Below are positions 5,449 to 27,680 of a stretch of 27,680 bases of DNA, piece after piece. Every line of letters starts with the position of its first letter. Positions within the stretch are counted from its first letter, which is position 1. A program made the translations under genes and the position numbers. Under the pieces are notes generated by a model. The model was not told the DNA's origin, ran no database searches, and was given only the letters and a program-made list of their open reading frames with translations. The stretch comes from a virus: positions 1 through 27,680 of IMG/VR virus record IMGVR_UViG_3300017605_001649, one strand, 5' to 3'.

Positions 5449-5871
5449 TTACGAGGTGGTTGTGCTGAGGTCGGTGGCCCAGGCCTTGAGGGTGATATCG
5501 AATTCGACGTGGCTGTCGACTTTGCGCGCTTTGCCGACTTTCAAGCAGACATAGGTTCCGGCGATGTCCGGATCGTCAGTATCGGCGATGACGACTTTAT
5601 CGCCGACGTTCAGGCCGCAAGTGCCGGCGGCGGTGATGGCGGCGGCCAAGGTGGTGTCGGAGGGATAGACGCGGAGATCGATTTCTTCGGTGGGATTCCA
5701 GAAGACCAGGCCGACGGCTTCGCCGTTTTGATCGGGCATCTCGACCATTTGGGCGTTGCGCTGGTAATTGGCGGAAAGGGGTTTGACTTTGAGCGGGGTC
5801 GCGACTGCGGTGAAGGTGAACCCGGCGCCCATGCCCCAGGCGATGCCGATTGCTTTTTGGACTACTGCCAT
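5449..5871 (-). CDS. Putative major tail tube protein
   Basis: The product is 140 residues, beginning MAVVQKAIGIAWGMGAGFTF. It looks like a compact beta protein with regularly alternating hydrophobic residues and a C-terminal DITLKAWATDLSTTTS. A small soluble beta protein just before the tail-chaperone and tape-measure genes is typically the tail tube or a tube-like structural subunit, so the assignment rests on size, fold impression and order. Its ATG sits exactly one base downstream of a perfect 9-bp hairpin (5873-5895), a setting shared with two other late genes. Strong, regulated translation would fit a high-copy subunit, but that is inference. Confidence 0.65.
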   Translation of the reverse strand: MAVVQKAIGIAWGMGAGFTFTAVATPLKVKPLSANYQRNAQMVEMPDQNGEAVGLVFWNPTEEIDLRVYPSDTTLAAAITAAGTCGLNVGDKVVIADTDDPDIAGTYVCLKVGKARKVDSHVEFDITLKAWATDLSTTTS

Positions 5872-5872
5872 A

Positions 5873-5895
5873 GCGGTTGACGCGGAGTCAACCGC
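5873..5895 (-). promoter_or_regulatory. Start-codon hairpin, copy 1
   Basis: A perfect inverted repeat with arms GCGGTTGAC/GTCAACCGC and a 5-base loop. It ends one base before the ATG of the putative tail tube gene. On the coding strand it contains the core TTGACTCC, also present in the hairpins at 8483 and 16535. Confidence 0.7.
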
Positions 5896-5899
5896 GGGG

Positions 5900-5930
5900 A
5901 AAGGCTAAAGGCTGAAGGCTAAAGGCTAAA
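5900..5930. repeat. Heptamer tract family A, copy 1
   Basis: Tandem 7-bp units alternating AAGGCTA and AAGGCTG on the plus strand, about four units. The tract lies immediately upstream of the start-codon hairpin of the tail tube gene. The TAG stop of the next gene upstream (5926-5928) falls inside it. Confidence 0.85.
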
Positions 5931-6387
5931 TTCTCGCGTTCGCGGCTATGACTTCGAGGTTAAGGGCATTGCGCAGATTGAAGCTCTCGGTGTCTTCGAC
6001 CAGGGCGGGGTTTAGGATGTCGATCACGGTGACTTCGAGGGCGAGGTCGATGGCGGCTTGGTTGAGCACGGAGATTATGTCGTCTCTGATTATGGCGTCG
6101 CGGACTTGGGCTACGCGGCTTTGATGGGCGGCTAATACGGCTCCGCTGTCGGCGGCGTTGTTTTCGTCGAGGCCGAGGCTCTCGACTTGGATTTGCATTT
6201 GGGCTCGGTGGACGCTGCTCCCGATGACCACCTCCGCGGAGGTGGGGCAGAAGCACACTGACTTGGGGAGTTGCAGGAGTTGATCGGTTAGGCCGGTAAA
6301 ATGAGTTAAGCCGGCGGGGATCGCGGCCACTAGCACGGTGCGGAAGATGGCTTCGAGCTTGGCTTCGAGGTTGTTGTAGTCGCTCAT
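5926..6387 (-). CDS. Tail terminator-position protein, unknown
   Basis: The product is 153 residues. The chosen start is MSDYNNLEAKLEAIF; an in-frame ATG six codons earlier would add residues encoded by the heptamer tract and is less likely. It is an alpha/beta-looking protein with a Cys pair (VCFCP) and a long helical segment (AAHQSRVAQVRDAIIRDD). Its size and its position directly before the tail tube gene match tail-terminator or tail-completion proteins of long-tailed phages, which is the inference here. No motif confirms it. Its stop codon is embedded in the family A heptamer tract. Confidence 0.7.
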   Translation of the reverse strand: MSDYNNLEAKLEAIFRTVLVAAIPAGLTHFTGLTDQLLQLPKSVCFCPTSAEVVIGSSVHRAQMQIQVESLGLDENNAADSGAVLAAHQSRVAQVRDAIIRDDIISVLNQAAIDLALEVTVIDILNPALVEDTESFNLRNALNLEVIAANARI

Positions 6388-6390
6388 GGG

Positions 6391-6420
6391 AATGGCAAAT
6401 GGCAAATGGCTAATGGCAAA
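6391..6420 (+). repeat. Heptamer tract family B, copy 1
   Basis: Tandem 7-bp units of AATGGCA/AATGGCT type, about four copies. It fills the short gap between two tail-completion genes, just upstream of the ATG at 6387. Confidence 0.85.
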
Positions 6421-6423
6421 GGT

Positions 6424-6639
6424 TTAGGTGCGGAGGTCGGGGTCGTAGTCGTGCGGGGGGAGTTCGATGGGGAAGGCTTGGAGGGTTTGGAATTCCCTTT
6501 GCAGTTGTTTTTCGCTGTCGCCGAAGATGACGTTGCGCAGTTCCGGATGGGCAAGGTAGGCGCGCTCGAGGAAATTGTGCAGGCTGAGCCGGATGTCGAG
6601 GAGCTGCTTGAGGAGAGTCTGTTTTTCGGTGCTGGTCAT
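6424..6639 (-). CDS. Small helical protein, unknown
   Basis: The product is 71 residues, beginning MTSTEKQTLLKQLLDIRLSL. It is rich in Leu, Glu and Lys, is probably two or three helices, and has no membrane segment. It lies between two tail-completion-type genes and is co-directional with both. No family is recognised. A weak GGAATAA stands upstream of the ATG. The 49 bases before it hold a family D palindrome followed by a T-rich stretch on the coding strand, which could attenuate transcription from the gene before it. Confidence 0.68.
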   Translation of the reverse strand: MTSTEKQTLLKQLLDIRLSLHNFLERAYLAHPELRNVIFGDSEKQLQREFQTLQAFPIELPPHDYDPDLRT

Positions 6640-6665
6640 TTTTATTCCAAAAATTATTCCGTGCT

Positions 6666-6687
6666 GCGGAGCAATGCTCCGCGCTCC
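6666..6687 (+). repeat. Dispersed palindrome family D, copy 2
   Basis: The form is GCGGAGCAATGCTCCGC plus GCTCC. It lies between two genes. On the minus strand it forms a stem and is followed 11 bases later by a T-run, so it may also act as a weak attenuator. Confidence 0.8.
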
Positions 6688-6688
6688 G

Positions 6689-7441
6689 TTAATGCGTCTT
6701 GAAATTTTTTTGCACGATATGCTCTAGGCGTTTGGTTAGGGACTCTACTCTTCGCTCGTAGGCTCGCTTGATGATGCCCAATTTCGGGCCGTGGGGTTGG
6801 GCGTAGGGGACGAGGTTGGCTATGGTGATGGATTGGTTGTCGGGGGTGCCGAGGTTGAGTTGCACTTGGCCGGGACCGGCGTGTCTCGTGATCCAGGCGG
6901 GGAGTTTTACGCCGAGGGCGTTGGCGGCGGCGGTCCAGCCGCTTTTCTCCATGCCGACGCGCTTTTGGGCGGCTCGCAGGATGCGGCCGATGCTGGCGGT
7001 TTGCAGGACCAGGCGGGGCTTGCGCAACGTCCGGCCGCCGGCGCCGCGCAGGGATTTGTGGAGATCGGCAGTGGCGGCGAGGATGACGGGGATCTTCACG
7101 CCGAGGCGGCGGAGGAGGACGGCGGCTTTGTCCAATGCGCCGCGGCGGGCGTATTTTTTTAGTTCTTCGGCGAGCTTCGGGTTGCTCTGGACGATCTGGA
7201 GGGATTCCCAGGATTTGAAAATTTTCTGGATGTCGTTTTGGATGGCGCGCTCCCCTGCCCTTCTCTGGACGTTGAATGATTCGCGGAAGGGGTTTTTGGC
7301 GTTGGGCGGAGTGAGGCGGATGCAATCCAATGTGAAGAGGGCGGCTTCGGATTTGAGGACTTCGCCGGCGTCGCGGCCGGTGACGCGCAGGAGATGCTTG
7401 GCTTGATCGGACCAGCGGGTGAAGTCGATTTCGAAGGACAT
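6689..7441 (-). CDS. Minor tail / tail-completion protein, gp10/gpZ-like
   Basis: The product is 250 residues, beginning MSFEIDFTRWSDQAKHLLR. The first part (ALFTLDCIRLTPP) matches the way HK97 gp10-like and lambda gpZ-like tail completion proteins start: a helix, then a 'various substances that become proper structure' Pro-rich turn. The middle is basic and helical, and the C-terminal part has a short beta segment (QSITIANLVPYAQ) typical of this group, where an active-site-like VPYA is often followed by His and Gly (QPHGPKLG). The assignment is moderate, from memory of the family pattern and from gene order. It starts two bases after the stop of the previous gene. Confidence 0.65.
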   Translation of the reverse strand: MSFEIDFTRWSDQAKHLLRVTGRDAGEVLKSEAALFTLDCIRLTPPNAKNPFRESFNVQRRAGERAIQNDIQKIFKSWESLQIVQSNPKLAEELKKYARRGALDKAAVLLRRLGVKIPVILAATADLHKSLRGAGGRTLRKPRLVLQTASIGRILRAAQKRVGMEKSGWTAAANALGVKLPAWITRHAGPGQVQLNLGTPDNQSITIANLVPYAQPHGPKLGIIKRAYERRVESLTKRLEHIVQKNFKTH

Positions 7442-7443
7442 GA

Positions 7444-7656
7444 TTAGCTTCTTTTGTTCAATGCCATCACGGTCTCGGGATTCCAGAACCAGTAATCGCC
7501 GCGGTCCTCGAGGTGGTTCCATTGGATGCCGTCGGCGGTTTTGATGTAGAGGCGCGCCGCACAGTCTCTGCGTAGCCGGAGACGCCATTTGCCCGCCGGT
7601 GCCAAAATGCGCTTCACCGGCTGAACGCCGAAGATGATTTTGCGGCCAAAGGTCAT
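7444..7656 (-). CDS. Small basic protein, unknown
   Basis: The product is 70 residues, beginning MTFGRKIIFGVQPVKRILAP. It is basic, with a Trp-rich C-terminal third (GIQWNHLEDRGDYWFWN). Its ATG overlaps the stop of the upstream gene as ATGA, and its own stop is two bases before the next start, so the three genes are translationally linked. No family is recognised; it probably belongs to the head-tail connector group by position. Confidence 0.7.
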   Translation of the reverse strand: MTFGRKIIFGVQPVKRILAPAGKWRLRLRRDCAARLYIKTADGIQWNHLEDRGDYWFWNPETVMALNKRS

Positions 7657-7925
7657 TCGGCTTCGGTGAAATCGAGATAGAATTTCTGGCCTGGCTTGAA
7701 CTGGCCGCGGAGGGCAGGATTGGTAATGGTAAGATTGAGGCTCCCGTTTGGGGTGTATCGGGCATAGGTGTTATCTTCGGACTCGCCTTCTTTACCGAAG
7801 GGGGCTTTGCCACAGACGGCAGCGAATTTGATTTCTTCGCACATGTTGAAACAGGCGACGGATTGGATTTCCATTTTGGCTCTCATTACGCTCATATTTT
7901 TCGGGGGTTTGGATGTGCTAGTCAT
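7653..7925 (-). CDS. Small connector-region protein, unknown
   Basis: The product is 90 residues. It starts MTSTSKPPKNMSVMRAKM; later in-frame ATGs (residues 11 and 14) are alternatives. The C-terminal half is beta-like (SLNLTITNPALRGQFKPGQKFYLDF) and reads like a small beta-barrel with the 'KPG-K-F-Y' turn common in phage structural proteins. It overlaps the upstream gene by 8 bases and the downstream one by 4. No named family is recognised. Confidence 0.72.
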   Translation of the reverse strand: MTSTSKPPKNMSVMRAKMEIQSVACFNMCEEIKFAAVCGKAPFGKEGESEDNTYARYTPNGSLNLTITNPALRGQFKPGQKFYLDFTEAE

Positions 7926-8481
7926 GGTGTGGAACGTGATCGGCGAAAGTGGGGGCGGTCTTGGCGGCCTTGGGGCTGACTTTCGGGCTGCTGGGTTCTT
8001 CGACCATCCGGATTAACTCCGCGGCTTTGTCTTGGAGGAGTTCTTGGGCGTGCTTCCGAAAGACATCGCCGGCGGCGATGGGCTTGTAGTGTTTGCTGAA
8101 GAGTTTGGCGAAGGCTTTGCCGGCGATCTCTTTTAAGTTGCCGAGGCGGATGAGCTTCTTGTCTTTGAAGCGGTAGGCGACGGGATCCAAGGCGGGGAAG
8201 AAAAAGCTGCTGATGAGTTTGGGCTTGGGGAATTGGACTTCCATGACTTCGCCCGAAGGACTGCAGTAGGTCCAGGTGGTGCCGACTTCGGCCATGCCTT
8301 GCTTGGCGGCGTCGAGCTTGGCTTCGTCGATGAAGCGGTTTTTGTAGAGCTGGTAGATTTCCTCGCAGGCTTTGATGTGGCGATCCATGTGGACGGCAGC
8401 GGTGACGAGGCCGGGGATTTCGAGGCTGGTTAGCTGCGAAATCTGTTCAGGCTCGAGGGCAAGAATCTGTTTCGAGGTCAT
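7918..8481 (-). CDS. Unknown structural-module protein
   Basis: The product is 187 residues. The chosen start is MTSKQILALEPEQISQLTSL; an upstream in-frame ATG would add residues encoded by the repeats. The N-terminal third is helical, the middle has an aromatic Lys-rich patch (FFFPALDPVAYRFKDKKLIR), and the C terminus is a low-complexity Pro/Lys/Ala tail ending HVPHHD. The family is not recognised. Its ATG is one base after a perfect hairpin, which is preceded by family A and then family B heptamer tracts, the same arrangement as at the gpW-like gene. Confidence 0.75.
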   Translation of the reverse strand: MTSKQILALEPEQISQLTSLEIPGLVTAAVHMDRHIKACEEIYQLYKNRFIDEAKLDAAKQGMAEVGTTWTYCSPSGEVMEVQFPKPKLISSFFFPALDPVAYRFKDKKLIRLGNLKEIAGKAFAKLFSKHYKPIAAGDVFRKHAQELLQDKAAELIRMVEEPSSPKVSPKAAKTAPTFADHVPHHD

Positions 8482-8482
8482 G

Positions 8483-8499
8483 GACTCCGCTGCGGAGTC
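8483..8499 (-). promoter_or_regulatory. Start-codon hairpin, copy 2
   Basis: A perfect 8-bp inverted repeat GACTCCGC/GCGGAGTC with a single-base centre, ending one base before the ATG at 8481. The 3' arm contains GGAG, the only Shine-Dalgarno-like sequence there, so folding would hide it. Confidence 0.72.
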
Positions 8500-8530
8500 A
8501 AGGCTGAAGGCTAAAGGCTGAAGGCTGAAG
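8500..8530. repeat. Heptamer tract family A, copy 2
   Basis: Four tandem units of AAGGCTG/AAGGCTA, directly abutting the start-codon hairpin of the gene at 8481. Confidence 0.85.
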
Positions 8531-8542
8531 TGGGACAAGCCG

Positions 8543-8576
8543 ATGGCAGATGACAAAATGGCAAATGGCTAAAATG
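8543..8576 (+). repeat. Heptamer tract family B, copy 2
   Basis: Degenerate AAATGGC/AGATGAC units. The TAG stop of the LamG-like gene (8569-8571) lies within it. Confidence 0.75.
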
Positions 8577-9855
8577 GAGACATCGTAATTGGGACGATGC
8601 AGTCGCCGCTGTGGTTGACGGTGTTCGTTATTCCTAAATTTACAGTACCGCCGGGGATGAAGAATTCGCACTCGTGGCCGGGGGTGACGCTGACGGTGAT
8701 CATTTGGGTAGTGCCGGCAATGAGGGTGCCTGCGGCGGGGCTGATGGTTACCCAGGCGGCGCTGCCGCTCGAGCTGGTGTTGGTTTGGCTGGTCCAGGTA
8801 AGGTCGCCGTTGCCGAGGTTGGCTATTTGCAACGCGGTCTGCACGAAGGGGCCGGCGCATTCGGGGCCGCTCAGTGTGACCGCGGCGGCGTTGGTGGCGA
8901 GGTACGGGGCGGTATTGCTGAAGGCGAGGCCGGGGTAATACCGGCGCATGATGTTTTCGAGGCGGAGGCTCTCGGTTACTTCGAAGGCGTGGTTGACGAG
9001 GACTAGCTCGTAGAGATCGATGCGGCTGCCGCCGAGTTGGTTGGTGCCACCGCTGTCGGCGAGGTAGCCGAGATGAAAGCTGCTCTGAGCACTCACCACA
9101 AAATTGGTGGGACGGGACCAATAGCCTACGGCGGCGGTGCCATTTACGCGCAGGAGGACGTTGCTGCGGTTTACGCTGGCGATGAGGAGCGCGGGTTGAT
9201 TGGTGTCGGGGACCCGGAGGAGGAGTGGGGATCCGGAAGTGGGCGGGCCGTTGGTCAGGAAAAGGGGGGTGAGCGGGGTGGCGTAGCTCTCGGCGAGATT
9301 CACACAATAGGATCCGCCGGAGAAGCCGAGGCCCCAGTCGAGTTTTTGTTGGGGGTCTTCGGGATCGGTGCTGAGGACTCCGCTGCCGGCGACCAGGGCG
9401 TGATCGTTGCCGGCTTTCGGCTGGATTAGGGCGGCGATGGTGAAGCCGTTGGTGTATTGGCCGATGGCGGCGCCGGTGGTGAGGCGGTGGATCAGGCGGA
9501 AGACGGCGTTGGTGCCGGTCCAGCTCGGGGGATGGCCGCTGGCTTGGACGCTGCCCAGGGCGAAACGAGAGGTCCAGACGCCGAGGTTCGTGGTGTTTAA
9601 GGAGACGCTGCTGCGCGGGGGGGCGCTGAGCCAGAGGTCGATGCCGGACATTTGATCGGCGTTGGCGCGGGAGCGGGAGCCGAGGGCGGGGACGGTGAGG
9701 AGAGAGGCGGCCGGGGAATTGACCACGGATTGCACGGATAAAACGGATAAGAAAAGGATGGGAACAATTGTTCCCATTGGAGCGCGGAATTTTTTACAGA
9801 AGGTAGCGAAGGCAGCGAAGGCCTGGCCTCCATAGGCTTTGCGAAGGAGGCTCAT
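8569..9855 (-). CDS. Secreted LamG-like adhesin-type protein
   Basis: The product is 428 residues. After a hydrophobic N-terminal stretch (GTIVPILFLSVLSVQSVV, about residues 28-45, then SPAAS), which looks like a Sec signal or anchor, comes a concanavalin/LamG-like domain (about residues 75-300; motifs GFTIAALIQPK, GLGFSGGSYCVN, SSFHLGYLAD, RIDLYELVLVN). A C-terminal Ig/BACON-like domain follows (about 330-425; LTWTSQTNTS, WVTISPAAGTL, ITVSVTPG). Such modules bind glycans or mediate adhesion. The ATG overlaps the upstream stop as ATGA. The first 45 codons are built from four dispersed repeats. A signal peptide in a virion operon is unusual; a host-derived moron is the alternative. Confidence 0.78.
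   Translation of the reverse strand: MSLLRKAYGGQAFAAFATFCKKFRAPMGTIVPILFLSVLSVQSVVNSPAASLLTVPALGSRSRANADQMSGIDLWLSAPPRSSVSLNTTNLGVWTSRFALGSVQASGHPPSWTGTNAVFRLIHRLTTGAAIGQYTNGFTIAALIQPKAGNDHALVAGSGVLSTDPEDPQQKLDWGLGFSGGSYCVNLAESYATPLTPLFLTNGPPTSGSPLLLRVPDTNQPALLIASVNRSNVLLRVNGTAAVGYWSRPTNFVVSAQSSFHLGYLADSGGTNQLGGSRIDLYELVLVNHAFEVTESLRLENIMRRYYPGLAFSNTAPYLATNAAAVTLSGPECAGPFVQTALQIANLGNGDLTWTSQTNTSSSGSAAWVTISPAAGTLIAGTTQMITVSVTPGHECEFFIPGGTVNLGITNTVNHSGDCIVPITMSPF
9760..9775. repeat. Palindrome family E, copy 1
   Basis: The perfect palindrome GGGAACAATTGTTCCC, extended by AT on both sides. It is translated on the minus strand as MGTIVP within the LamG-like gene. Other copies are at 17717 and 27016. 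Confidence 0.88.
9784..9821. repeat. Dispersed repeat family F, copy 2
   Basis: The second copy of the element at 2235-2272. Here it is translated within the leader of the LamG-like gene (AAFATFCKKF on the minus strand). Confidence 0.8.
9822..9852 (+). repeat. Dispersed repeat family C, copy 1
   Basis: A CCTCCATAG...GCGAAGGAGG hairpin-like element, translated as LLRKAYGGQ at the very start of the LamG-like gene. Related copies are at 25239 and 25808. Confidence 0.75.
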
Positions 9856-10886
9856 TTGAAGCGGTCGCTGCAAACTCTCACGTTGTTGGTGGCGTAGCAG
9901 ATGATCGAGAGGTCTAAATAGCAGTTGGTGCGCACGTAAGTATTCGTGGTTGGGAGGTCGGTGTAGGCGTCGACGGGCCATCTCGCTACGACGTTGGCGG
10001 GCCAGATGTAGCTGACGGCGTTGCTGCCGGCGGGGCCGGCGAGGGAGAAGTTCAGGTTTAGGCCGGGGAAAATATTGGTGAATCTTAGGGTGACATTGTA
10101 GCCGGTGTTAAGATTGGTGACGATTTGCAAGGGCGGGTTTAGGCCATCGATGATGATCGTGCTGTTGGTGCTGAGTTGGGTTACGCCCATGCTGATGGGG
10201 CCGCTCATGATCGTGGTGGATGAGATGCTGATGCTGCCGGCGATGATGGTGTTTTGATAGAAATTGAGTTTGGTCCAGAGGGGATCGTTGGCTAGTTGGA
10301 TGCCGCCGGCGCCATCGTCGTTGAGGACGTTGAGGCTGTTGATCTGATAGCTGCCGAGGCTCGGGGCTTTGAAGGCGCTGAAGGTGGCGAGGGTTCCGGA
10401 GACGTCCCCTGCCCCGACAATGGCGGTGTTGTTGGTGATGCTGCCGCGGAGGGAGAGGTTGGTTACTTCGGCGCCGCTCTTGATGGTGAGGGTGGAACTG
10501 GGGCCGAATTGGTTGCCGTTGGTGGACGCTACTCCGCCGGCCCCGACGCTGATGCCGAGATGGGCGACTCCGCCGGCCTGGTAGCCGGTGACGCCGGTGT
10601 CGAAGGAGAAGGTGCCGATGTTGGTGCCTAACGTGACGTTTTGGGTTTTGATTAGGCTATTCGTAAATGGATTGCCGGCGATGCCGTAGAGTTCGGTGAA
10701 ATTCGAATTCGCTTTTTGAAAGGCGACGCGGAGGCTGTCGCCGGTGCCATCGTTGGCGGTGCTGCCGACGTTGATGGTGTACTGGGTGGCGTGGGCTAGC
10801 CAGACGAAGAACAGGGAGATCGCGAAGGCCACAAACGGGATCCAAGGGATCCAGTGGCGGGGGCGGATTCGGAGTAGAATTTTCAT
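9852..10886 (-). CDS. Secreted tail-fibre-like protein
   Basis: The product is 344 residues. It has a clear signal peptide: a basic start (MKILLRIRPRHW), a hydrophobic core (WIPFVAFAISLFFVWLA) and a probable cleavage after AHA (about residue 33). The mature protein opens with YTINVGSTANDGTGDSLRV, the motif found at the head of many phage tail fibres and capsid-decorating proteins (NxGxxxNDGTGDxLRxAF). A Gly, Ser, Thr and Asn-rich repetitive beta region follows, with no catalytic motif. The combination of a fibre domain with an export signal is odd. ATGA overlaps link it to the small gene upstream and the LamG gene downstream. Confidence 0.8.
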   Translation of the reverse strand: MKILLRIRPRHWIPWIPFVAFAISLFFVWLAHATQYTINVGSTANDGTGDSLRVAFQKANSNFTELYGIAGNPFTNSLIKTQNVTLGTNIGTFSFDTGVTGYQAGGVAHLGISVGAGGVASTNGNQFGPSSTLTIKSGAEVTNLSLRGSITNNTAIVGAGDVSGTLATFSAFKAPSLGSYQINSLNVLNDDGAGGIQLANDPLWTKLNFYQNTIIAGSISISSTTIMSGPISMGVTQLSTNSTIIIDGLNPPLQIVTNLNTGYNVTLRFTNIFPGLNLNFSLAGPAGSNAVSYIWPANVVARWPVDAYTDLPTTNTYVRTNCYLDLSIICYATNNVRVCSDRFK

Positions 10887-10996
10887 GGAGAATGCTGAAG
10901 GCTGAAGGCTAAAGGCTGAAACTTGGGGATCATTTGGGTGAGGCGAAAGGTTTCGATCAGAGCCTCCTGACGTCGGCTGCTACGAGATGATTTCAT
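10883..10996 (-). CDS. 37-residue peptide gene
   Basis: A short frame encodes MKSSRSSRRQEALIETFRL followed by 18 more residues. Its ATG overlaps the stop of the upstream gene (ATGA at 10993-10996), and its TGA overlaps the ATG of the fibre-like gene (10883-10886), so it is framed on both sides by coupling overlaps. The N-terminal part is a basic amphipathic helix. The C-terminal third (FQPLAFSLQHSP) is translated from a family A heptamer tract. Its function is unknown. It may exist mainly to carry ribosomes from one gene to the next. Confidence 0.62.
   Translation of the reverse strand: MKSSRSSRRQEALIETFRLTQMIPKFQPLAFSLQHSP
10893..10921. repeat. Heptamer tract family A, copy 3
   Basis: Four units of AAGGCTG/AAGGCTA within the 37-residue gene, just upstream of the fibre-like gene. 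There is no start-codon hairpin here. Confidence 0.85.
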
Positions 10997-11388
10997 GCGT
11001 TGCGGCTGCTGTGTTGATCGGCTAAATGCAAAACGACGTGGCTGCCGCCGGCGGCTAGTTTGGCGCTCAATACTCGATACCGGGTTCCGGGATCGTTGCC
11101 GGGATAGGTCACGATTTGGCCGGTGACGGGGACGGGTTTGTCGTTGTCGGCGGTATAGAGGTCGGAGTCGACGGTGATTAGCGTACTGTCGGCGGTGAGG
11201 AAGTTGCTGAGGCGGACGAAGAGGGTTAGGCCGATTTCGACGGGGTTGCCGCCGACCATGATTTCGATGCCGCGTTGGAGGCTGCTGGGGGTGCAGGGAA
11301 TCGTGACGTTTTTCCAGCCGAAGGTGGGGGTGCTGAGGAGTTTCTCGGTTTTACGGAGGGCTCGGGTGATGGCGGCGGGGAAGGTCAT
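10993..11388 (-). CDS. Head-tail joining or completion protein, putative
   Basis: The product is 131 residues, beginning MTFPAAITRALRKTEKLLST. A helical start is followed by a beta-rich body (GIEIMVGGNPVEIGLTLFVR, TYPGNDPGTRYRVLSAKL). The closing pattern, in which a value is obtained from a short beta hairpin ending with VVLHLAD, is reminiscent of small head-tail joining proteins such as lambda gpFII-like components. Size and location between capsid and tail genes fit, but no diagnostic residue was seen. A family B tract lies just upstream and no strong ribosome-binding site is visible. Confidence 0.62.
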   Translation of the reverse strand: MTFPAAITRALRKTEKLLSTPTFGWKNVTIPCTPSSLQRGIEIMVGGNPVEIGLTLFVRLSNFLTADSTLITVDSDLYTADNDKPVPVTGQIVTYPGNDPGTRYRVLSAKLAAGGSHVVLHLADQHSSRNA

Positions 11389-11394
11389 TCTTTA

Positions 11395-11426
11395 GATGGC
11401 AAATGGCTGATGGCAAATGGCAAATT
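11395..11426 (+). repeat. Heptamer tract family B, copy 3
   Basis: Four units of GATGGCA/AATGGCT/AATGGCA type, directly upstream of the ATG at 11388. Confidence 0.82.
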
Positions 11427-11445
11427 TGGGGGCTCCTCTCCCCTG

Positions 11446-11467
11446 CCCTCTCCTCCCGAGGAGAGGG
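11446..11467. repeat. 10-bp inverted repeat
   Basis: Arms CCCTCTCCTC and GAGGAGAGGG separated by two bases. It stands between the terminator and the next gene. It has no T-run, so it is not itself a terminator. Confidence 0.7.
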
Positions 11468-11517
11468 AGTCGGATGGCTGATCGCTCCGCTTGCTTTGGC
11501 TTCGCTCTGTCATTTTC

Positions 11518-11551
11518 AAAAAGAAACGCCGCTCGGTTGGGGCGAGCGGCG
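11518..11551 (-). terminator. Rho-independent terminator, minus strand
   Basis: On the minus strand the arms CGCCGCTCG/CGAGCGGCG enclose a 7-base loop and are followed directly by TTTCTTTTT. It lies 50 bases after the stop of the signal-peptide protein gene and would end the transcript that carries terminase, portal, protease and capsid. Confidence 0.72.
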
Positions 11552-11600
11552 AAATGGGCCGGGCAAATTCCGCTTGCTTGCGCTCGCGGGCGGTCGGTTT

Positions 11601-12305
11601 TTAGTTTTTGCCGCCGTTGCCGTTGTAGTAGTCGCCGGTGATGCTGTGGATGGTGGCGGCGTTGCTGTAGAGCATTTCGCAAAGGAGCGGACTCCCCTTC
11701 TTGCCGATGAAGAAGCCGCCGGCTCCGCGGTTGTAATTGGTGCGGCCGACGCCCGGGGTGGGCAGGACGGCGATTTGGGTCATTTTCCAGATGCGATCGT
11801 TAGGGCCGTTGGTGACGGCGGCGCTGGGAAAGATGCTGATCTGGGAGGTGGTGGCGTTCGTGACCATGCATCGCTGGTAGAGGCCGGCGTCGGTATATTG
11901 GATGACAATGATGTCATTGGAGGCGATAACCGAGGAGCCGTTTTGGACCCAAAGCTGGTTCGTGCCGGAAATGCCTCCGCCGTTGGTGATGCCGATGGCA
12001 TTGGTGCTGGTGTAGATCGTCATGTCTTTGCCGACGAGGTCGCCGGTGAAGCTGAGATCGAGGAGGCGCGGGGCGGCTTTGTAGCTCACCGGGGCGATGA
12101 ACCAGACGACGTTGGATGTCGCCATGGGGCCGGTGCTGACGCAGTTGGTCAGGCCCTGGCCGCCGAAGGCTTCGGGAACGCCATCTACGCCGCTATACAT
12201 GGAGGTGCCGGCGGCGCAGTTGCCCTGGGCAAAGGCTGAAGGCTGAAGGCTGAAGGCTGAAGTGATCAGCATCGCGGAGAGGAGGAGTTTGGTGAGCTTA
12301 TGCAT
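11601..12305 (-). CDS. Secreted protein with repeat-built signal peptide
   Basis: The product is 234 residues. The first 27 form a textbook signal peptide: MHK, a hydrophobic core (LLLSAMLITSAFSL), then SAFA before the probable cleavage at Q27. The last part of the leader (SAFSLQPSAFA) is translated from a family A heptamer tract. The mature part has no recognised family. It is rich in Gly, Asn, Ser and Thr, with four or five Cys residues and beta-like stretches (DIIVIQYTDAGLYQR, ATTSQISIFPS), and resembles secreted or virion-surface beta proteins. It follows a small gene after the capsid gene and is itself followed by a terminator. There is no Shine-Dalgarno; a T9 run precedes the ATG. Confidence 0.77.
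   Translation of the reverse strand: MHKLTKLLLSAMLITSAFSLQPSAFAQGNCAAGTSMYSGVDGVPEAFGGQGLTNCVSTGPMATSNVVWFIAPVSYKAAPRLLDLSFTGDLVGKDMTIYTSTNAIGITNGGGISGTNQLWVQNGSSVIASNDIIVIQYTDAGLYQRCMVTNATTSQISIFPSAAVTNGPNDRIWKMTQIAVLPTPGVGRTNYNRGAGGFFIGKKGSPLLCEMLYSNAATIHSITGDYYNGNGGKN
12231..12262. repeat. Heptamer tract family A, copy 4 (coding)
   Basis: Four units of AAGGCTG. On the minus strand the three-heptamer, 21-bp period gives the 7-residue period SAFSLQP, used here as the end of a signal peptide. Confidence 0.87.
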
Positions 12306-12324
12306 AATAAAAAAAAATCGTTCG

Positions 12325-12606
12325 TTATTTGCGGGCGCGTTTGGGGATGAGCTTGGTTTCTTCTTCGGAGGATGGGACCGCGGGGACGGATGGGGCGGCC
12401 GCGGCGGCGGCGAGCTGGGCATGGGTTTGCCAGGCTAGCACGGATTTGGAGCGGAAGAGGCGGCCTTTGCTGATGACGTCCACTTGCCGGGCATCTTCGG
12501 GGGGAGATTGGGCGACCTTCAGGGCGGCCATGATGTCCCGGCCGGCGTAGAGGCACTTCACTTCCCCATTGGGGAACTCGGCGATGGTGATGGCGGCTTT
12601 GATCAT
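12325..12606 (-). CDS. Small capsid-adjacent protein, unknown
   Basis: The product is 93 residues, beginning MIKAAITIAEFPNGEVKCLY. The first 60 residues look like a small alpha/beta domain (AEFPNGEVKCLYAGRDIMAAL). The rest is an Ala/Pro-rich linker ending in a basic tail (KLIPKRARK). It sits 11 bases after the major capsid gene and has a good AAGGAT ribosome-binding site. In lambda-like phages this slot holds head-completion proteins such as FI, which fits an Ala/Pro-rich accessory protein, but no homology is claimed. Confidence 0.75.
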   Translation of the reverse strand: MIKAAITIAEFPNGEVKCLYAGRDIMAALKVAQSPPEDARQVDVISKGRLFRSKSVLAWQTHAQLAAAAAAPSVPAVPSSEEETKLIPKRARK

Positions 12607-12617
12607 CCGAAAAATCC

Positions 12618-13505
12618 TTATGCGCTCTTGATGCGGATGAGGTTGGCGGCGACGCCAACGGCGGCTCCGTGCTGGGTGAGCATTTGGAGGCGGTGCTCGG
12701 CGCCGTCGTAAAAGTGGCGGAATTGGACGGGGAGGCCGGTGACGGGTTCGATGGTGTTCTCGACCTGGCCGTACCAATCTTGCGGATCGACGGGGCGGCG
12801 CGCGGCTAAACAAATGGCGGCGGGACCGCAGGCGAATCCGGTGAGGTTTTCGCCGTTAGTCGGGATGGTGCCATTATACTCATATTGGTCGATGCCGTGG
12901 ACACGGGTGGCCATGTTGTTGCGGATGGCTTCGGCGCCGCCGTAGGCATAGGACTGTTGAATACTGCCGTCGCGCTGGAGGTTCCCGTAGTAGGCGGGAG
13001 CGACGATGGCGGAGCGCGGGTTCTTGGGGATTTTGGCCACGCTCATGGCTTGCGAGATGGTGCTGACCATATCGGCATCGTAGGCGGCGGAGGCGGCGAT
13101 TTGGTTTTGCGCGAAATTTCCACTGGTCACCAGGGCGAAGATGGTGGCCATGATGTCTTCGATAATGGCGGTGACGCCGGGGCGGATGAAGAGTTGCTCG
13201 AGCTGGATCTCGGAGTTGATGACTTCGACGTCGTTGAAGCCGATGTCCACGCCGCGCGGGTTGCCGATGTTTACCTGGACGCTGTTGATGGTGCTGTTGT
13301 CGCTGACGCGGTTGGCGGCGGTGAGCAATTGCTTGACCGTGGGATTGGTCGGATAGCGGGTGGTGACGCTCGGGCCTTTGGCGACTTCGTCGGAGAAGTC
13401 GGTGACGAAAATGCCTTTAAGGGGCACGAGCTCAGTGACGAGGGAATCGAGGCTGCGTTGCGCGATGCGGGCGAGGTTTACGCCGCCGATGGTGTTTGTG
13501 GACAT
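12618..13505 (-). CDS. Major capsid protein
   Basis: The product is 295 residues. It begins MSTNTIGGVNLARIAQRSLD, then LVPLKGIFVTDFSDE and VTTRYPTNP. This pattern, with a short N-terminal arm, a central long helix (IIEDIMATIFALVTSG, about residues 112-127) and a C-terminal beta-rich part, agrees with HK97-fold coat proteins of the kind that follow a protease/scaffold gene. Its position after the ClpP-like protease and before head-completion genes supports the call more strongly than any single motif. There is no ribosome-binding site; a pyrimidine-rich CCCTCTTTT precedes the ATG. Confidence 0.82.
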   Translation of the reverse strand: MSTNTIGGVNLARIAQRSLDSLVTELVPLKGIFVTDFSDEVAKGPSVTTRYPTNPTVKQLLTAANRVSDNSTINSVQVNIGNPRGVDIGFNDVEVINSEIQLEQLFIRPGVTAIIEDIMATIFALVTSGNFAQNQIAASAAYDADMVSTISQAMSVAKIPKNPRSAIVAPAYYGNLQRDGSIQQSYAYGGAEAIRNNMATRVHGIDQYEYNGTIPTNGENLTGFACGPAAICLAARRPVDPQDWYGQVENTIEPVTGLPVQFRHFYDGAEHRLQMLTQHGAAVGVAANLIRIKSA

Positions 13506-13509
13506 AAAA

Positions 13510-13535
13510 GAGGGTTAGTGGATTCGGGGTTCAGG
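13510..13535 (+). repeat. Short repeat with TTCGGGGTTCAGG, copy 1
   Basis: AGGGTTA then TTCGGGGTTCAGG, between capsid and protease genes. A second copy with the same 13-base core and the same plus-strand orientation is at 23958-23984. Confidence 0.6.
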
Positions 13536-13538
13536 TGT

Positions 13539-13958
13539 TTACATTGCGGCTTTGTTCGCGAGGTAGAAGTCGCGGGCGGCTTTTTTGCCGTCTTTGGCCT
13601 GGATGGTCTTGAACTCGGCCCAGAGTTCGTCGGGGGTCTTGGCCGCGGCTTTGGGACCGGGAGTCTCAGCGGCGACGGCGGTGTGGCCGGCTTTGGCGAG
13701 GGTCTCGGAGGCTTTGGCGTTGGCGCGGGTTTGCATCTCGGCTTCTTTGGTGGGGATGCTGGCTTTGACCTGTTGCAGTTCGGCGCGGAGATTGGTGATC
13801 TCGGTGCGGAGGTTGGTTAGTTCCTCGGCTTTATTATCGGGCGCGGGGCTGAGGAGGTTTTTTAGGCGGTCCAGCAGGGAAAGGGGTGTTTCGGCGGCGG
13901 GAGCGGGAACGACGATGGGAGATGGTGCGGGCGCAGCGGCCGCGGTGGCGGTGTTCAT
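13539..13958 (-). CDS. Possible nested scaffold protein (in-frame internal start)
   Basis: An in-frame ATG at 13956-13958 (MNTATAAAAPAPSPIVV) would give a 139-residue scaffold made from the C-terminal domain of the protease gene alone, like lambda Nu3 within gene C. The upstream context is AGAGAAATTCAAAAT, a weak Shine-Dalgarno. A family B tract and a degenerate TTGACTCC core precede it, the same leader signals found before true start codons elsewhere in this window. This is an inference from architecture and context. Confidence 0.45.
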   Translation of the reverse strand: MNTATAAAAPAPSPIVVPAPAAETPLSLLDRLKNLLSPAPDNKAEELTNLRTEITNLRAELQQVKASIPTKEAEMQTRANAKASETLAKAGHTAVAAETPGPKAAAKTPDELWAEFKTIQAKDGKKAARDFYLANKAAM

Positions 13959-14657
13959 ATTTTGAATTTCTCTAGTCTTCGATTCAACGGGGATTGATGG
14001 GGAGTCAACTGGGCCGGCAGATGGCAGATGGCAAGATGGCAAATGGCAAATGGCTTTTGGGGCGTTGCGGAAGTGGGTGAGGTCGAAGGAATTGGTCAAG
14101 GCGACTTCTTCGGTGGCTTGATCGGCCAGGCCCCAGGCGGCGGCTTCGGCGCCGGTATACCAGGTCTCGGCGGACATGGCTTTTTCGATCTCGGCCATGG
14201 GCTTGCGGGTTTTGGCGTGGTAGATGCCAACGAGGACGGCTTTGTTTTTGTCGAGGATGCTGGCCATCTTGCGCATCTCATCGGCGTTGCCGTAGGCGAG
14301 GCCGCTGGGATCGTGGATCATCATCAGGGCGTTTTTGGGCATTCGGGTCTCACGGCCGGCCATGGCGATGATGCTGGCGATGCTGGCGGCCATGCCGTCG
14401 ACGCGGGAGACGACTTTGGCGTGGCGGGCCTGGAGTTGGTGATAGATGGCGAGGCCGTCGAAAACGTTCCCGCCTGGTGAGTTGATGGCGACGACGATTT
14501 CGCGATCTAATGGTATCTCTTTGAGGGCTTGCGCGAAGTCTTTGGCGCCGACGCCGGAGTCGTCCCAATAGGATTTTCCGATGCGGTCGTAGATGAGGAT
14601 TTCGGCGGGGCCGCTGTCGGTGGCGGCGGCATTGCGGATTTCAAACCAGGTTTTCAT
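13539..14657 (-). CDS. Head maturation protease (S14/ClpP-like) fused to scaffold
   Basis: The product is 372 residues. Residues 1-200 form a ClpP-type serine protease: NSPGG (59-63) shapes the oxyanion hole, GMAAS gives the nucleophile Ser92, MMIH gives His115, and Asp136 in ILDKNK is the likely acid. It should process the prohead and cut the scaffold. Residues 201-233 are a linker encoded by a family B heptamer tract. Residues 234-372 are an Ala/Pro segment, a coiled coil (EELTNLRTEITNLRAELQQV) and a helical tail, typical of scaffolding protein. The ATG overlaps the portal stop. Gene order portal-protease-capsid is that of lambda B-C-E. Confidence 0.88.
   Translation of the reverse strand: MKTWFEIRNAAATDSGPAEILIYDRIGKSYWDDSGVGAKDFAQALKEIPLDREIVVAINSPGGNVFDGLAIYHQLQARHAKVVSRVDGMAASIASIIAMAGRETRMPKNALMMIHDPSGLAYGNADEMRKMASILDKNKAVLVGIYHAKTRKPMAEIEKAMSAETWYTGAEAAAWGLADQATEEVALTNSFDLTHFRNAPKAICHLPSCHLPSAGPVDSPSIPVESKTREIQNMNTATAAAAPAPSPIVVPAPAAETPLSLLDRLKNLLSPAPDNKAEELTNLRTEITNLRAELQQVKASIPTKEAEMQTRANAKASETLAKAGHTAVAAETPGPKAAAKTPDELWAEFKTIQAKDGKKAARDFYLANKAAM
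14019..14054 (+). repeat. Heptamer tract family B, copy 4 (coding)
   Basis: Five degenerate units (AGATGGC, AAATGGC) translated as AICHLPSCHLPS in the protease-scaffold linker. A TTGACTCC core follows at 14001-14008 on the minus strand. Confidence 0.82.
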
Positions 14658-16276
14658 TTTGACATGGGCATTGGCTCGGGCTCGCTCGCTGTTTCGCTCG
14701 CGGCCGCGGTCGCGCTGGCGGGCTGGCCGTTGGGGGTGCGTTGCTCGAGGAGTTGCACGCAGTCCATTAAGGTGAGCTCGGGGAATTCGGTTTGGAGTTC
14801 GGTGGCGCGGAGCAATAGATCCCGGGTTTCGATTTGCTTTTGTTTGCGGATTTCTTCCCACCAGCAGCCGTCTTCGCTGGCCCATTGGCGCAAGGTGAGG
14901 ATGCCGAGTTTGTATTTCTCGCGTTTGGCGGATTCGTCGTTGCCGCTGTCGGCGGTCAAGCGCGCGGGGCCGGAGTAGTCCCAGGAGAAGATATCGCCGT
15001 CGGGGGGCGCGGGGAGGAGTTTGAGATCGATGGCTTTGGCCAAGGCATAGGTGTCTTCGGCGAGCTGGCAGCGGGCTTCGATGCGCTGGTTGTTGGCGAT
15101 GGCACGGTTGATCTTTTGCAGGATCGTTCTGGCCCAGGCTCCGCCGGGCTCTTTGATGGCTAAGGCGAAATCGGGATCCCATTCGATGCCGTAGAAGGCG
15201 CCGCGGACGATGCGGTCTTCGAATTCCTGGCAGCCGGGGCCGGGGCGGTCGGGGCGGATGAGCTCGAGGCCGCTGCCGGTGTTGCTGCGGTAGTAGCGGG
15301 TGAGGCCTTTGTCGAATTGCTCGATGGTGACGCCGGCGACGCTGGTGGCATCGATGGTGGGGTCGGCTGTGCTGGGGATGAAATTGGCGCCGGAGGCTTC
15401 GCCTTCTTCGTTTTGCTCGAGCAAGGCTTCGCGGGCCTGGATCTGTTGGGCGCGCATCTCGTATTCGCGGAGGCGTTTGATTTCGCCAAAGCTGCCGATG
15501 CTGGCCATCAATTCCGAAATGCCGCGGGATTGGTCGGAGTAATCGGGATTGTAGCAGAGGAGGAAGGAGGCGGCGGGGATGTCTTGATCGTCTTTGGGTT
15601 CGTCGGCTAACAGTCGGTAAGCGATGGGGCGGCCGCGGCGATCGGTGATGATGCCGTTGTCGATCTTGGCGCCGTTGTAGGGGCCGCCTTGGACGGTGCC
15701 GTCCGTTTTGGTGCGGGAGCGGTCTTCACGGAGGCCGATGCGGTGGGCGCGGATGAATTGGAGGCGCGGATAGCCGGTGGCGTCGTCGAAGGTGAGGAGG
15801 CGGCCGATGTCGCCGTCGGTTTTGCGAGCGAGGAGGCGGACGCGGGCGGAGACGTGGCAATCGAACGGGCCGCCGCGATATTCGGCTTGTTGTTTCCAGT
15901 AGTAGAGCCATTCCTTTGCCAGACGTCCCCAGGCGTCGTCTTCGCCGGTATAGTGGGGCTCCAGCGGGAAGCTGTAACTGGCTTGTTCAAGAAGCGCGCC
16001 GCGAAGAATGGGGACGTTGGCAAAAAGGAACCGGCCGGAGTTGAGGAGCTGTTTCCAGTCACAGCGTGGGAGAAGGGCTTGAGTGTCGCGGGTGGCGTCG
16101 AGCCAGTTTTGCGTGACCAGGTCGCCCTGGGAATTGTAGCGGTTGCCGCCTTCGAAAAAGGTGACGTAGCTGCGGATTTGGCGGGCGGAACCGTTAGCCT
16201 GGCCGTTGACGCGGGGGGAAATTCCGGGGCGGCGAGCGGCGCGCGGGCGCGGGGACTTGTGGGCGCGGCGTTTCAC
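14654..16276 (-). CDS. Portal protein, lambda family
   Basis: The product is 540 residues and matches the lambda-type portal in length and layout. It has a basic N-terminal arm (KRRAHKSPRPRAARRPG), then YNSQGDLVTQNWLDATRD, a helical wing region (KRLREYEMRAQQIQAREALL, about residues 260-280), and a stem/crown segment with YGIEWDPDFALAIKEPGGAW (about 378-397) typical of the family. The C-terminal tail is low-complexity Ala/Ser/Glu/Pro. Portals form the dodecameric DNA channel at one capsid vertex and dock terminase. The start is GTG, overlapping the gpW-like stop as GTGA; the stop overlaps the protease start as ATGA. Confidence 0.9.
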   Translation of the reverse strand: MKRRAHKSPRPRAARRPGISPRVNGQANGSARQIRSYVTFFEGGNRYNSQGDLVTQNWLDATRDTQALLPRCDWKQLLNSGRFLFANVPILRGALLEQASYSFPLEPHYTGEDDAWGRLAKEWLYYWKQQAEYRGGPFDCHVSARVRLLARKTDGDIGRLLTFDDATGYPRLQFIRAHRIGLREDRSRTKTDGTVQGGPYNGAKIDNGIITDRRGRPIAYRLLADEPKDDQDIPAASFLLCYNPDYSDQSRGISELMASIGSFGEIKRLREYEMRAQQIQAREALLEQNEEGEASGANFIPSTADPTIDATSVAGVTIEQFDKGLTRYYRSNTGSGLELIRPDRPGPGCQEFEDRIVRGAFYGIEWDPDFALAIKEPGGAWARTILQKINRAIANNQRIEARCQLAEDTYALAKAIDLKLLPAPPDGDIFSWDYSGPARLTADSGNDESAKREKYKLGILTLRQWASEDGCWWEEIRKQKQIETRDLLLRATELQTEFPELTLMDCVQLLEQRTPNGQPASATAAASETASEPEPMPMSK

Positions 16277-16533
16277 AGATCGTCAAAGCGCGAGGTGGTG
16301 ACGCGGATGCGTTGGACCTGGCTGGCGGGATAGGTATCGGGATCGAGGAGGTTTAACGCTTTGAGGAGGAGTTCAATGCGGCGTTCGACGCCAAGGTTGC
16401 GGCCGGGCATGAACTGGGAGTTGACATCGGCGACGGCGGCTTGAGTCAAGGTAGTGCCACCGGCCAATTCTTCCTGGCATTCGGCGAGCCAGGTCTCGAG
16501 TTGGGATTGTGCAACGCCGATGAACGGGTTCAT
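16273..16533 (-). CDS. gpW-like head-tail connector
   Basis: The product is 86 residues. The pattern of two helices around a short hairpin, with a conserved-looking start (MNPFIGVAQSQLETWLAECQ) and a Thr/Ala-rich middle (GGTTLTQAAVADVNSQF), then GVERRIELLLKAL, fits the gpW family (lambda gpW is 68 residues). The position directly before the portal is that of lambda W before B. The protein would stop the DNA leaking from the filled head and take part in tail joining. Its ATG is one base downstream of a perfect hairpin preceded by family A and B heptamer tracts. Confidence 0.82.
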   Translation of the reverse strand: MNPFIGVAQSQLETWLAECQEELAGGTTLTQAAVADVNSQFMPGRNLGVERRIELLLKALNLLDPDTYPASQVQRIRVTTSRFDDL

Positions 16534-16534
16534 G

Positions 16535-16551
16535 GACTCCCGGAGGGAGTC
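16535..16551 (-). promoter_or_regulatory. Start-codon hairpin, copy 3
   Basis: Perfect 7-bp arms GACTCCC/GGGAGTC with a 3-base loop, ending one base before the gpW-like ATG. It shares the core TTGACTCC with the hairpins at 5873 and 8483. Confidence 0.72.
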
Positions 16552-16554
16552 AAG

Positions 16555-16587
16555 AAAGGCTGAAGGCTAAAGGCTAAAGGCTAAAGG
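16555..16587. repeat. Heptamer tract family A, copy 5
   Basis: Four to five units of AAGGCTG/AAGGCTA, next to the start-codon hairpin of the gpW-like gene. Confidence 0.86.
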
Positions 16588-16601
16588 GGGAGAGAGGAAG
16601 G

Positions 16602-16627
16602 ATGGCAAATGGCTAATGGCAAATGGG
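16602..16627 (+). repeat. Heptamer tract family B, copy 5
   Basis: Three to four units of AAATGGC/TAATGGC type, between the family A tract and the rightward cassette. Confidence 0.82.
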
Positions 16628-16675
16628 AAAGCTGCCGATTTGCAAGTGGAGGGAAAACTGCTAAGGCTTTAAGGC

Positions 16676-17184: not shown

Positions 17185-17187
17185 GCT

Positions 17188-19804: not shown

Positions 19805-20445
19805 GCGGCGGCGCTGAATTCTTTGCAGAGGCGGTCGACCAGCTCTTTCATGTGCGTGCGGATGATGGCGGCGGGCTGATTCTGCAGGAGGGGCGGGAGT
19901 TCGTCCTCGAGGGCGGAGCGGAGTTTGGATTTGAGGAGCTCGGCGAGGTCTTTGATTTGCGCGAGGGTTTTGTCCCGGGGAAGGAATTGGCCTTCGCGGA
20001 CTTCGTTTTCGAATTTGATGCGGCGGATCTGTTCGCGGAGCTTTTCGTCCTTCAGGTGCAGGGCGTCGAGGGCGGGCGTTTCGGATTTGTCGAGGAGCTC
20101 CGGATGGGCTTCGAAGAATTTGCGCCAGGCCGGGACGTGGTGATCGCCATTGGCCCGGGGCTTGGGCGCGTCGGCGAATTGCTTGCGGAACCGCGGGAAG
20201 GAAGCGCGATGGGGACCGAAGATTGAGCCGAGGGCCTCATACGAGCTGACCCATTCCGCCGGCGGCGACGTCGGATCCGCCGCCGCGGCTGCAGGGGATT
20301 GGAAACTGGCGATGAGGGATTGCTCGCGGGCGGTTAAGGTTTTGCCGGCGGCGGCCTTCTTAACGATGTTCGTGACGTTTTTCTGGAGGATTTTTTCGGC
20401 TTCCTGGGCGGAGAGAATGCGGGGCTTTTCACGGGCGGCGGCCAT
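19801..20445 (-). CDS. terS: Terminase small subunit
   Basis: The product is 214 residues. A basic helical N-terminal region (ILSAQEAEKILQKNVTNIVK, then TLTAREQSLIASF) is followed by an Ala/Pro linker, EALGSIFGPHRASFPRFRKQ (an HTH-like, Nu1-type segment with a 'YEALG...G' start, about residues 69-88), and a long coiled-coil (LKDEKLREQIRRIKFENEVR, about 130-150). HTH plus coiled coil is the usual small-terminase layout, and the adjacent GpA-type large subunit supports it. No strong Shine-Dalgarno precedes the ATG. Confidence 0.85.
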   Translation of the reverse strand: MAAAREKPRILSAQEAEKILQKNVTNIVKKAAAGKTLTAREQSLIASFQSPAAAAADPTSPPAEWVSSYEALGSIFGPHRASFPRFRKQFADAPKPRANGDHHVPAWRKFFEAHPELLDKSETPALDALHLKDEKLREQIRRIKFENEVREGQFLPRDKTLAQIKDLAELLKSKLRSALEDELPPLLQNQPAAIIRTHMKELVDRLCKEFSAAA

Positions 20446-20460
20446 GAATCAGATCGGGCA

Positions 20461-20495
20461 GTCAAAAATTTTCCTGTGTAACTTGAATTTTTGAC
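20461..20495. promoter_or_regulatory. 10-bp inverted repeat upstream of terS
   Basis: GTCAAAAATT and AATTTTTGAC, perfect complements with a 15-bp spacer, 16 bases from the terS start. Candidates are a terminase-binding site, an operator for the late operon, or a second weak terminator. Confidence 0.6.
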
Positions 20496-20605: not shown

Positions 20606-21244
20606 TCAGGCGTTGGGTAATAGCCGGTGGTACAGTTCGACGAGCGGACGGAGCTGCGAGGCCAGCGCGGCTCTTCGGTTCGGATCCCAATGCTCCACTC
20701 GCTGTGATCTAAACCATCGCATTCCCGATGCTAGCCAAGTCGCCGGGACAAATCCCAAGCACCTCGCGCTCGAAGGTTTGCGCGTCGCTTGAGCTTTCCT
20801 CACTGCAATTCGTAGCTCACTAACACTCCAATCCTTCTCCAAGGCCATCTTCAACCACTTCCGCTGCTCCTCGCGTTCCAATGGCGCAACCACCGCATGG
20901 TGCGTCCAATCCAGTTTGTCCTCCCGGGAGGACAAATGCACATTGGCGCAAACGTAGGAGCAATTCCGCAAATGCTGATACTCCCAATCCGTAATCTCAA
21001 TCGCCATCGCGTACTTGCTCCCCCACTTGCGCTCCCCGAAATTCACCCAATCCCCCACAAACCAATTCAGCGATCCGCGAAACTCCTTTATCTCCCGCCA
21101 AAGCGCCTTCCAATCCTTCCGCTCCATTCCCTCCGCGAACTCCGCCCCGATGGAACTCCATACCAACTGCCGCGACTCCAACAACCGCTTCAACACTGAC
21201 ACATCCTGCCCCCCAAACACCGTCATGCCATTGCTTGCGTTCAT
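20606..21244 (-). CDS. ParB-like-pattern regulatory protein
   Basis: The product is 212 residues. The middle reads LNWFVGDWVNFGERKWGSKY, then HLRNCSYVCANVHLSSRED, DWTHHAVVAPLEREEQRKWL, and WSVSELRIAVRKA. I recognise this block (GDWxNxGExxYGxKYxxA, HHxxVAxL, WSVxELRxAV) from many phage and plasmid proteins of unassigned function with a ParB/KorB-like helix-turn-helix flavour. DNA binding is inferred, not shown. It is the last gene of the early operon, coupled by ATGA to the gene before it and followed by a terminator. A 22-bp perfect palindrome lies inside it. Confidence 0.7.
   Translation of the reverse strand: MNASNGMTVFGGQDVSVLKRLLESRQLVWSSIGAEFAEGMERKDWKALWREIKEFRGSLNWFVGDWVNFGERKWGSKYAMAIEITDWEYQHLRNCSYVCANVHLSSREDKLDWTHHAVVAPLEREEQRKWLKMALEKDWSVSELRIAVRKAQATRKPSSARCLGFVPATWLASGMRWFRSQRVEHWDPNRRAALASQLRPLVELYHRLLPNA
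20915..20936. repeat. 22-bp perfect palindrome
   Basis: Arms TTTGTCCTCCC and GGGAGGACAAA, no spacer. It lies inside the last early gene and is translated as HLSSREDK. It resembles the GGGACAAAT part of the repeats at 23524-23615. Confidence 0.75.
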
Positions 21245-27632: not shown

Positions 27633-27680
27633 AGATCGGAAGAGCGTCGTGTAGGGAAAGAGTGTACGTCCTGGTGTAGA
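27633..27680 (+). other. Illumina TruSeq adapter and i5 index (contamination)
   Basis: AGATCGGAAGAGC starts at 27633 and the standard adapter continues to 27665. ACGTCCTG, an 8-base index, and GTGTAGA, the next part of the adapter, follow to the end. ACGTCCTG is the reverse complement of index D507 as I remember it. This is not biological sequence. Confidence 0.97.

Follow-up and report, generated by a model that had tools for sequence, protein, structure and literature searches.

A TTGACW hexamer at a fixed distance before the start codons of late genes in Verrucomicrobiota phages and prophages

The 27.7-kb virus record IMGVR_UViG_3300017605_001649 was analysed over its whole length of 27,680 nucleotides (nt), referred to here as the window, and the leaders of four of its late genes were found to carry the hexamer TTGACT at one distance from the start codon. 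The same element, TTGACW (W = A or T), recurs at a wide range of unrelated late genes in Verrucomicrobiota phages and prophages, and it is very likely that a start-linked phage signal of this form exists. Terminase, portal, major head protein and terminase small subunit (terS) were assigned in the window by PHROGs. The four copies and their genes, all on the minus strand, are as follows.

5869..5891, minus strand: TTGACT-N14-ATG of a putative tail tube gene (5449-5871, minus)
8479..8501, minus strand: TTGACT-N14-ATG of a gene without assigned function (7918-8481, minus)
16531..16553, minus strand: TTGACT-N14-ATG of the gpW-like gene (16273-16533, minus)
20443..20465, minus strand: TTGACT-N14-ATG of terS (19801-20445, minus; start at 20445), with neither hairpin nor heptamer tract

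The N14 spacing is identical in all four, and 4 of the 13 TTGACW copies in the window stand at start-linked spacing (0.4 expected). The first three leaders also contain hairpins, on which the original prediction was built, and the terS copy had been overlooked there. The terS start has TTGACT-N14 without a hairpin. What is conserved, and what defines the element, is TTGACW with its constant spacing to the start codon and not the hairpin.

The gpW homologues of three viral loci (L006, L007 and L089) all have TTGACT upstream of the start, while the remainder of the leader differs. The hexamer was then ranked in 28 viral loci chosen by terminase homology alone, three of which (L006, L007 and L201, the last sharing its contig with L089) were among those compared for their gpW leaders. 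With no trained gene finder in use, starts were taken as the ATG of open reading frames (ORFs) of at least 60 codons. Of all 4096 hexamers, TTGACT comes top for placement 12-18 nt ahead of such an ATG (21/89 copies against 2.9 expected). A terminase profile search matched 25 of 388 Verrucomicrobiota genomes, and in the 18 prophage regions screened from these the top hexamer is TTGACA (55/149 against 5.1 expected, z 22), with distances to ATG that favour 13, 14 and 16 nt; GTG and TTG starts peak at 13-14 nt. For the pooled motif, 61/213 copies lie at start-linked spacing in the prophages (7.3 expected, p 4e-38) and 36/206 in the viral terL relatives (6.7 expected, p 2e-16), counts that are not fully independent as some loci are closely related to one another. 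No excess was present in 400 kb of chromosome sampled from five of the prophage genomes (7/180 against 6.8 expected), nor in five control phages, namely lambda, NrS-4, Mano, a Helicobacter prophage and MinM1 (4/134 against 4.8 expected). One hexamer at a fixed start distance sharply separates prophage late genes from the sampled chromosome of the same genomes. The 99 motif starts are spread over 52 protein clusters, the gpW cluster with motif leaders has 14 members from the window, viral contigs and prophages, and many single loci are individually significant at p <1e-4. Several prophage regions (such as L259, L261 and L265) have no TTGACW excess.

The spacer between TTGACW and the start codon is C-rich and A-poor in its first half and G-rich in its second. 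It folds more stably (mean minimum free energy -1.73) than dinucleotide shuffles (-1.10, z -5.8) or other starts in the same loci (-0.62), and 15.3% of spacers fall below -4 kcal/mol as compared with 6.8% of shuffled and 3.7% of control starts. Hairpins of unrelated sequence adjoin the ATG in other loci, for example L199, L197, L200, L207, L224, L227, L248, L249, L253 and L258. The hairpin is an optional part of the element, strongly used in this window, where the three are:

5873..5895, minus strand: hairpin GCGGTTGAC-TCCGC-GTCAACCGC, 9-bp stem, 5-nt loop, -15.8 kcal/mol, TTGAC within the stem, without GGAG
8483..8499, minus strand: hairpin GACTCCG-CAG-CGGAGTC, 7-bp stem, 3-nt loop, -10.2 kcal/mol, GGAG in the 3' arm
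16535..16551, minus strand: hairpin GACTCCC-TCC-GGGAGTC, 7-bp stem, 3-nt loop, -11.1 kcal/mol, GGAG in the 3' arm

As originally described, all three are perfect and each is followed by one base and then ATG on the minus strand, and the copies at 8483 and 16535 hold their sole GGAG in the 3' arm. Among spacer hairpins ending next to ATG, these three are the strongest examples. The core TTGACTCC is indeed on the coding strand of all three, but it pairs differently at 5873, where TTGAC is in the stem and TCCGC forms the loop. Perfect hairpins of at least 7 bp ending exactly 1 nt before a start occur at 3 of 34 putative minus-strand starts, with 0.033 expected per offset, and none of 2000 dinucleotide shuffles yielded three such hairpins. 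Part of the motif, either GACT or TTGAC, is paired within the stems.

Of the possible modes of action, an effect on the late mRNA at translation initiation is the most likely, and we give it about an even chance. An mRNA-level role is favoured because the spacing to the start codon is fixed, GTG and TTG starts included, because copies lie between or within late genes, and because there is no -10 box. Stop-to-ATG distances at motif starts range from -17 to 177, many copies being between or within neighbouring late genes. Among 98 motif starts, neither a -10 box nor any second box is conserved at a set distance from TTGACW or from ATG. The element consists of TTGACW, a C-rich-to-G-rich spacer, usually of 13-16 nt, and the start codon, and would mark phage late genes for translation in hosts poor in Shine-Dalgarno (SD) sites; some Verrucomicrobia are listed as SD-scarce (PMC10783764). 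A hairpin in the spacer would be the tuning part, which either needs opening or draws UUGACW near the AUG. As part of the motif is paired in the window stems, the signal would stay closed there until the stem is opened by a factor or by ribosomes passing through. More tentatively, a non-Shine-Dalgarno UUGACW with a foldable spacer could recruit host ribosomes to the late genes of Verrucomicrobiota phages through a phage-specific reader factor, with the host itself largely not using the signal. As far as the open PubMed Central (PMC) literature shows, the way in which these phages may single out genes of their own for expression has no earlier description.

Several results weigh against a translational role. 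TTGACA is the exact bacterial -35 consensus, which would be a striking coincidence if the motif is read as RNA, and in the Verrucomicrobia phage P8625 TTGACA stands some 30 nt ahead of ATG, together with -10-like boxes. No ribosomal partner for UUGACW was identified in the 16S 3' regions read, which have no longer tail complementary to TTGACW. About 85% of motif starts are without a clear hairpin, including that of terS in the window and the tract-borne starts of the terL relative G392. Spacers also fold alike in sense and antisense (-1.73 and -1.62), so that their structure cannot show RNA as the acting form. As a separate observation, no exact GGATCACCTCCTTT was found in six genomes (G130, G166, G231, G187, G330 and G218, one of them a single 3.75-Mb contig), possibly because the 16S 3' end is different there or absent. 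The possibility that the TGA of TTGAC serves as an upstream stop for coupled re-initiation was considered and rejected, as frame run lengths do not differ.

The strongest alternative, which we regard as possible if rather unlikely, is that TTGACW is a DNA promoter or activator site from which late mRNAs begin at or beside the ATG, read by a phage regulator with a helix-turn-helix resembling sigma region 4 or by an unusual polymerase. The motif shares its consensus, TTGACA, with the -35 element of sigma-70 (sigma-A) promoters, but lacks their TATAAT-like -10 box 16-18 nt downstream; the start codon itself sits in the position of the -35/-10 spacer. At 13-16 nt before ATG, TTGACW leaves no room for a -10 box and a start site ahead of the gene, and the extra structure of the spacer has no clear DNA-level role. 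In P8625, a cultured phage, the arrangement TTGACA-N17-TATNNN-N7-ATG precedes several genes (about three by eye), and 4 of 20 TTGACA copies are at N28-32 (0.5 expected); from their sequence, these sites are probably promoters of near-leaderless mRNAs. At four further sites in P8625 (L292, NC_029047.1), upstream of 5448, 10772, 15594 and 22442, the distance from TTGACA to ATG is exactly 36 nt, and three of the four have a GTATCC..GGATAC-like inverted repeat, which again points to near-leaderless promoters. A candidate late regulator is encoded in the window:

21241..21744, minus strand: small helix-turn-helix protein encoded upstream of terS, with conserved counterparts in L200, L201, L007 and L202

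Its conservation beside terS in motif-bearing phages is consistent with a transcriptional role, and the best structural matches of its predicted fold (mean predicted local distance difference test score 73) are to sigma factors and to sigma region 4 in complex with -35 DNA. These matches are non-significant, however, with E values of 1.1 or worse, and the Pfam sigma-70 region 4 matches one homologue only, at E 0.17. The protein is no more than a candidate reader of the motif.

A transcriptional signal of this kind would be a new type of late promoter giving near-leaderless mRNAs, and a translational one would be a new means of recruiting ribosomes. The motif would offer a new way to study how phages give preference to their genes in SD-poor bacteria. 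It improves the calling of gene starts in these phages and could help to spot such prophages.

One of the two readings in the original prediction was a translational control element that hides the ribosome-binding site. A control element at the start site is supported, but it is the spacing of TTGACW, not the hairpin or a hidden GGAG, that defines it. That the window hairpins mask ribosome-binding sites through GGAG in the 3' arm, and so switch the three genes, is doubtful. Two of the three do hold the sole GGAG, 3 nt before ATG, in a stem of -10 to -11 kcal/mol, but this is close for a Shine-Dalgarno site and the third hairpin, at 5873, has no GGAG. A paired SD at each regulated gene is not what was found: it occurs in two of the three window copies and is not conserved in the gpW leaders, where relatives keep TTGACW with different hairpins or none and lose either GGAG or the stem. 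Hiding of the site does not hold as a general function and would be at most a local addition to the general element.

The other original suggestion, a hot spot for repeat insertion, touches on the heptamer tracts, which lie upstream of all three hairpins (family A), with family B tracts upstream of two in the order B-A, as first described.

5900..5930, minus strand: A heptamer tract (coding-strand CCTTYAG)
8500..8530, minus strand: A heptamer tract
8543..8577, minus strand: B heptamer tract (TTGCCAT type)
16555..16587, minus strand: A heptamer tract
16602..16630, minus strand: B heptamer tract
10890..10920, minus strand: A tract directly before gene 9852-10886, with no TTGACT and no hairpin

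CCTTYAG tracts were found in 111 stretches of IMG/VR contigs and in 12 of the 388 sampled Verrucomicrobiota genomes. In the viral contigs, 90 of 168 distinct tracts lie no more than 60 nt from a long-ORF ATG in the coding orientation, against 47 in reverse, and 64 against 28 lie within 25 nt of one. The order tract-TTGACT-ATG also occurs outside the window, at several genes of G392, where a tract directly abuts TTGACT. Most motif-bearing phages have no tract, and tracts and motif are therefore separable; the tracts are a separate, unstructured, pyrimidine-rich layer upstream of the element.

Insertion fits these tracts better than it does the hairpins. It is very improbable that hairpins and tracts together are mobile or slippage-made repeats which gather in intergenic gaps and have no function at start codons. 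The tracts are common in phages and in some Verrucomicrobiota genomes, occur also inside ORFs (12232 and 14016), and slippage has been proposed for heptamers (PMC4679880). Against this, TTGACW and its ATG spacing stay constant while the hairpin sequence varies between copies and between orthologous leaders, and one spacing holds 61 of the 213 prophage copies. The hairpins do not behave as dispersed or repetitive extragenic palindromes, as their sequences differ and viral contigs hold no further copies of the family. The original prediction had proposed looking for the tract-hairpin arrangement elsewhere; a tract followed by TTGACTCC was present in 0 viral contigs and in three places on genome contigs that look unrelated and are not equivalent. 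No lineage among the 388 genomes is enriched for the TTGACTCC hairpin, the 12 matches in viral contigs to a hairpin followed by one base and ATG are mostly within ORFs and look like chance, and heptamer-bearing viral contigs have no general hairpin peak 1 nt before ATG. A hairpin at the ATG in L109/L117 was rejected by eye as probable coding sequence (RLSxEER). A second palindrome, GCGGAGCAWTGCTCCGC, was also rejected as the same element, being unrelated and at other positions; its family has four copies in the window, at 5151 (GAT loop), 6666, 23995 and 26354, at ORF ends and in intergenic sequence, and its longer form matched in only two viral contigs (L194 and L195). Chance, by which palindromes and TTGACT would stand before ATG by accident, could be argued from there being only three hairpins in one 27.7-kb window, but is refuted by the shuffles and by replication of the motif in independent sets (p 2e-16 and 4e-38), and is hardly credible.

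Like a Shine-Dalgarno site, TTGACW is a single short motif that precedes the start codon by a narrowly set distance, with ATG or GTG tolerated. It differs in not being complementary to the CCUCC anti-SD, in lying at about -20 instead of about -10 (motif end 12-18 nt upstream, against about 5-9 nt), and in being a feature of phages which is not in excess in the sampled host chromosome. For the tracts, the closest published parallel is the TAACTGA heptamer repeats before start codons in Beggiatoaceae (MacGregor 2015, PMC4679880), for which a translational role was proposed. There, as here, short heptamer arrays are directly upstream of starts and Shine-Dalgarno sites are few. The CCTTYAG tracts are arrays near start codons of the same kind, but the heptamers are not the same, being CCTTYAG and TTGCCAT here, and the tracts are separate from a single TTGACW hexamer with fixed spacing, of which the accessible part of that paper gives no description. 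The sites of T4 RegA are RNA signals overlapping or just 5' of the AUG, common to about 30 phage mRNAs (PMC3014915), and so resemble TTGACW as shared phage signals close to AUG. RegA sites, however, are A+U-rich, unstructured and in early and middle genes, whereas the present element is C-rich, partly structured and in late genes, and no RNA-binding protein was identified for it. Phage-encoded bS21 has been proposed to select late phage mRNAs via altered host ribosomes (PMC9723584), which is similar in that preferential translation of phage late genes is proposed; it differs in that 'motif' and 'start codon' are absent from the text of that paper.

Further observations concern the heptamers and the window itself. 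The A tract at 12232-12262 falls within a coding region and specifies a portion of a putative signal peptide (LITSAFSLQPSAFAQG); the protein of a relative reads LVLAFSLQPSAFAS. B-type units in reverse (ATGGCAA) at 25839-25868 and 26048-26077 supply start codons and MANGK-type N-termini to early-region ORFs. In L114/L174 (contig 3300011438_000025), inverted pairs of heptamer tracts are linked by a palindrome (AAAGTCTGATCAGACTTTAGCC) in intergenic sequence. The plus-strand ORFs at 16676-17628, which have no PHROG match, lie between the gpW-like and terminase genes, antiparallel to the late operon. An Illumina adapter (ACACTCTTTCCCTACACGACGCTCTTCCGATCT, minus strand) occupies 27633-27680 at the contig end, an assembly artefact that lengthens the ORF at 26328-27680.

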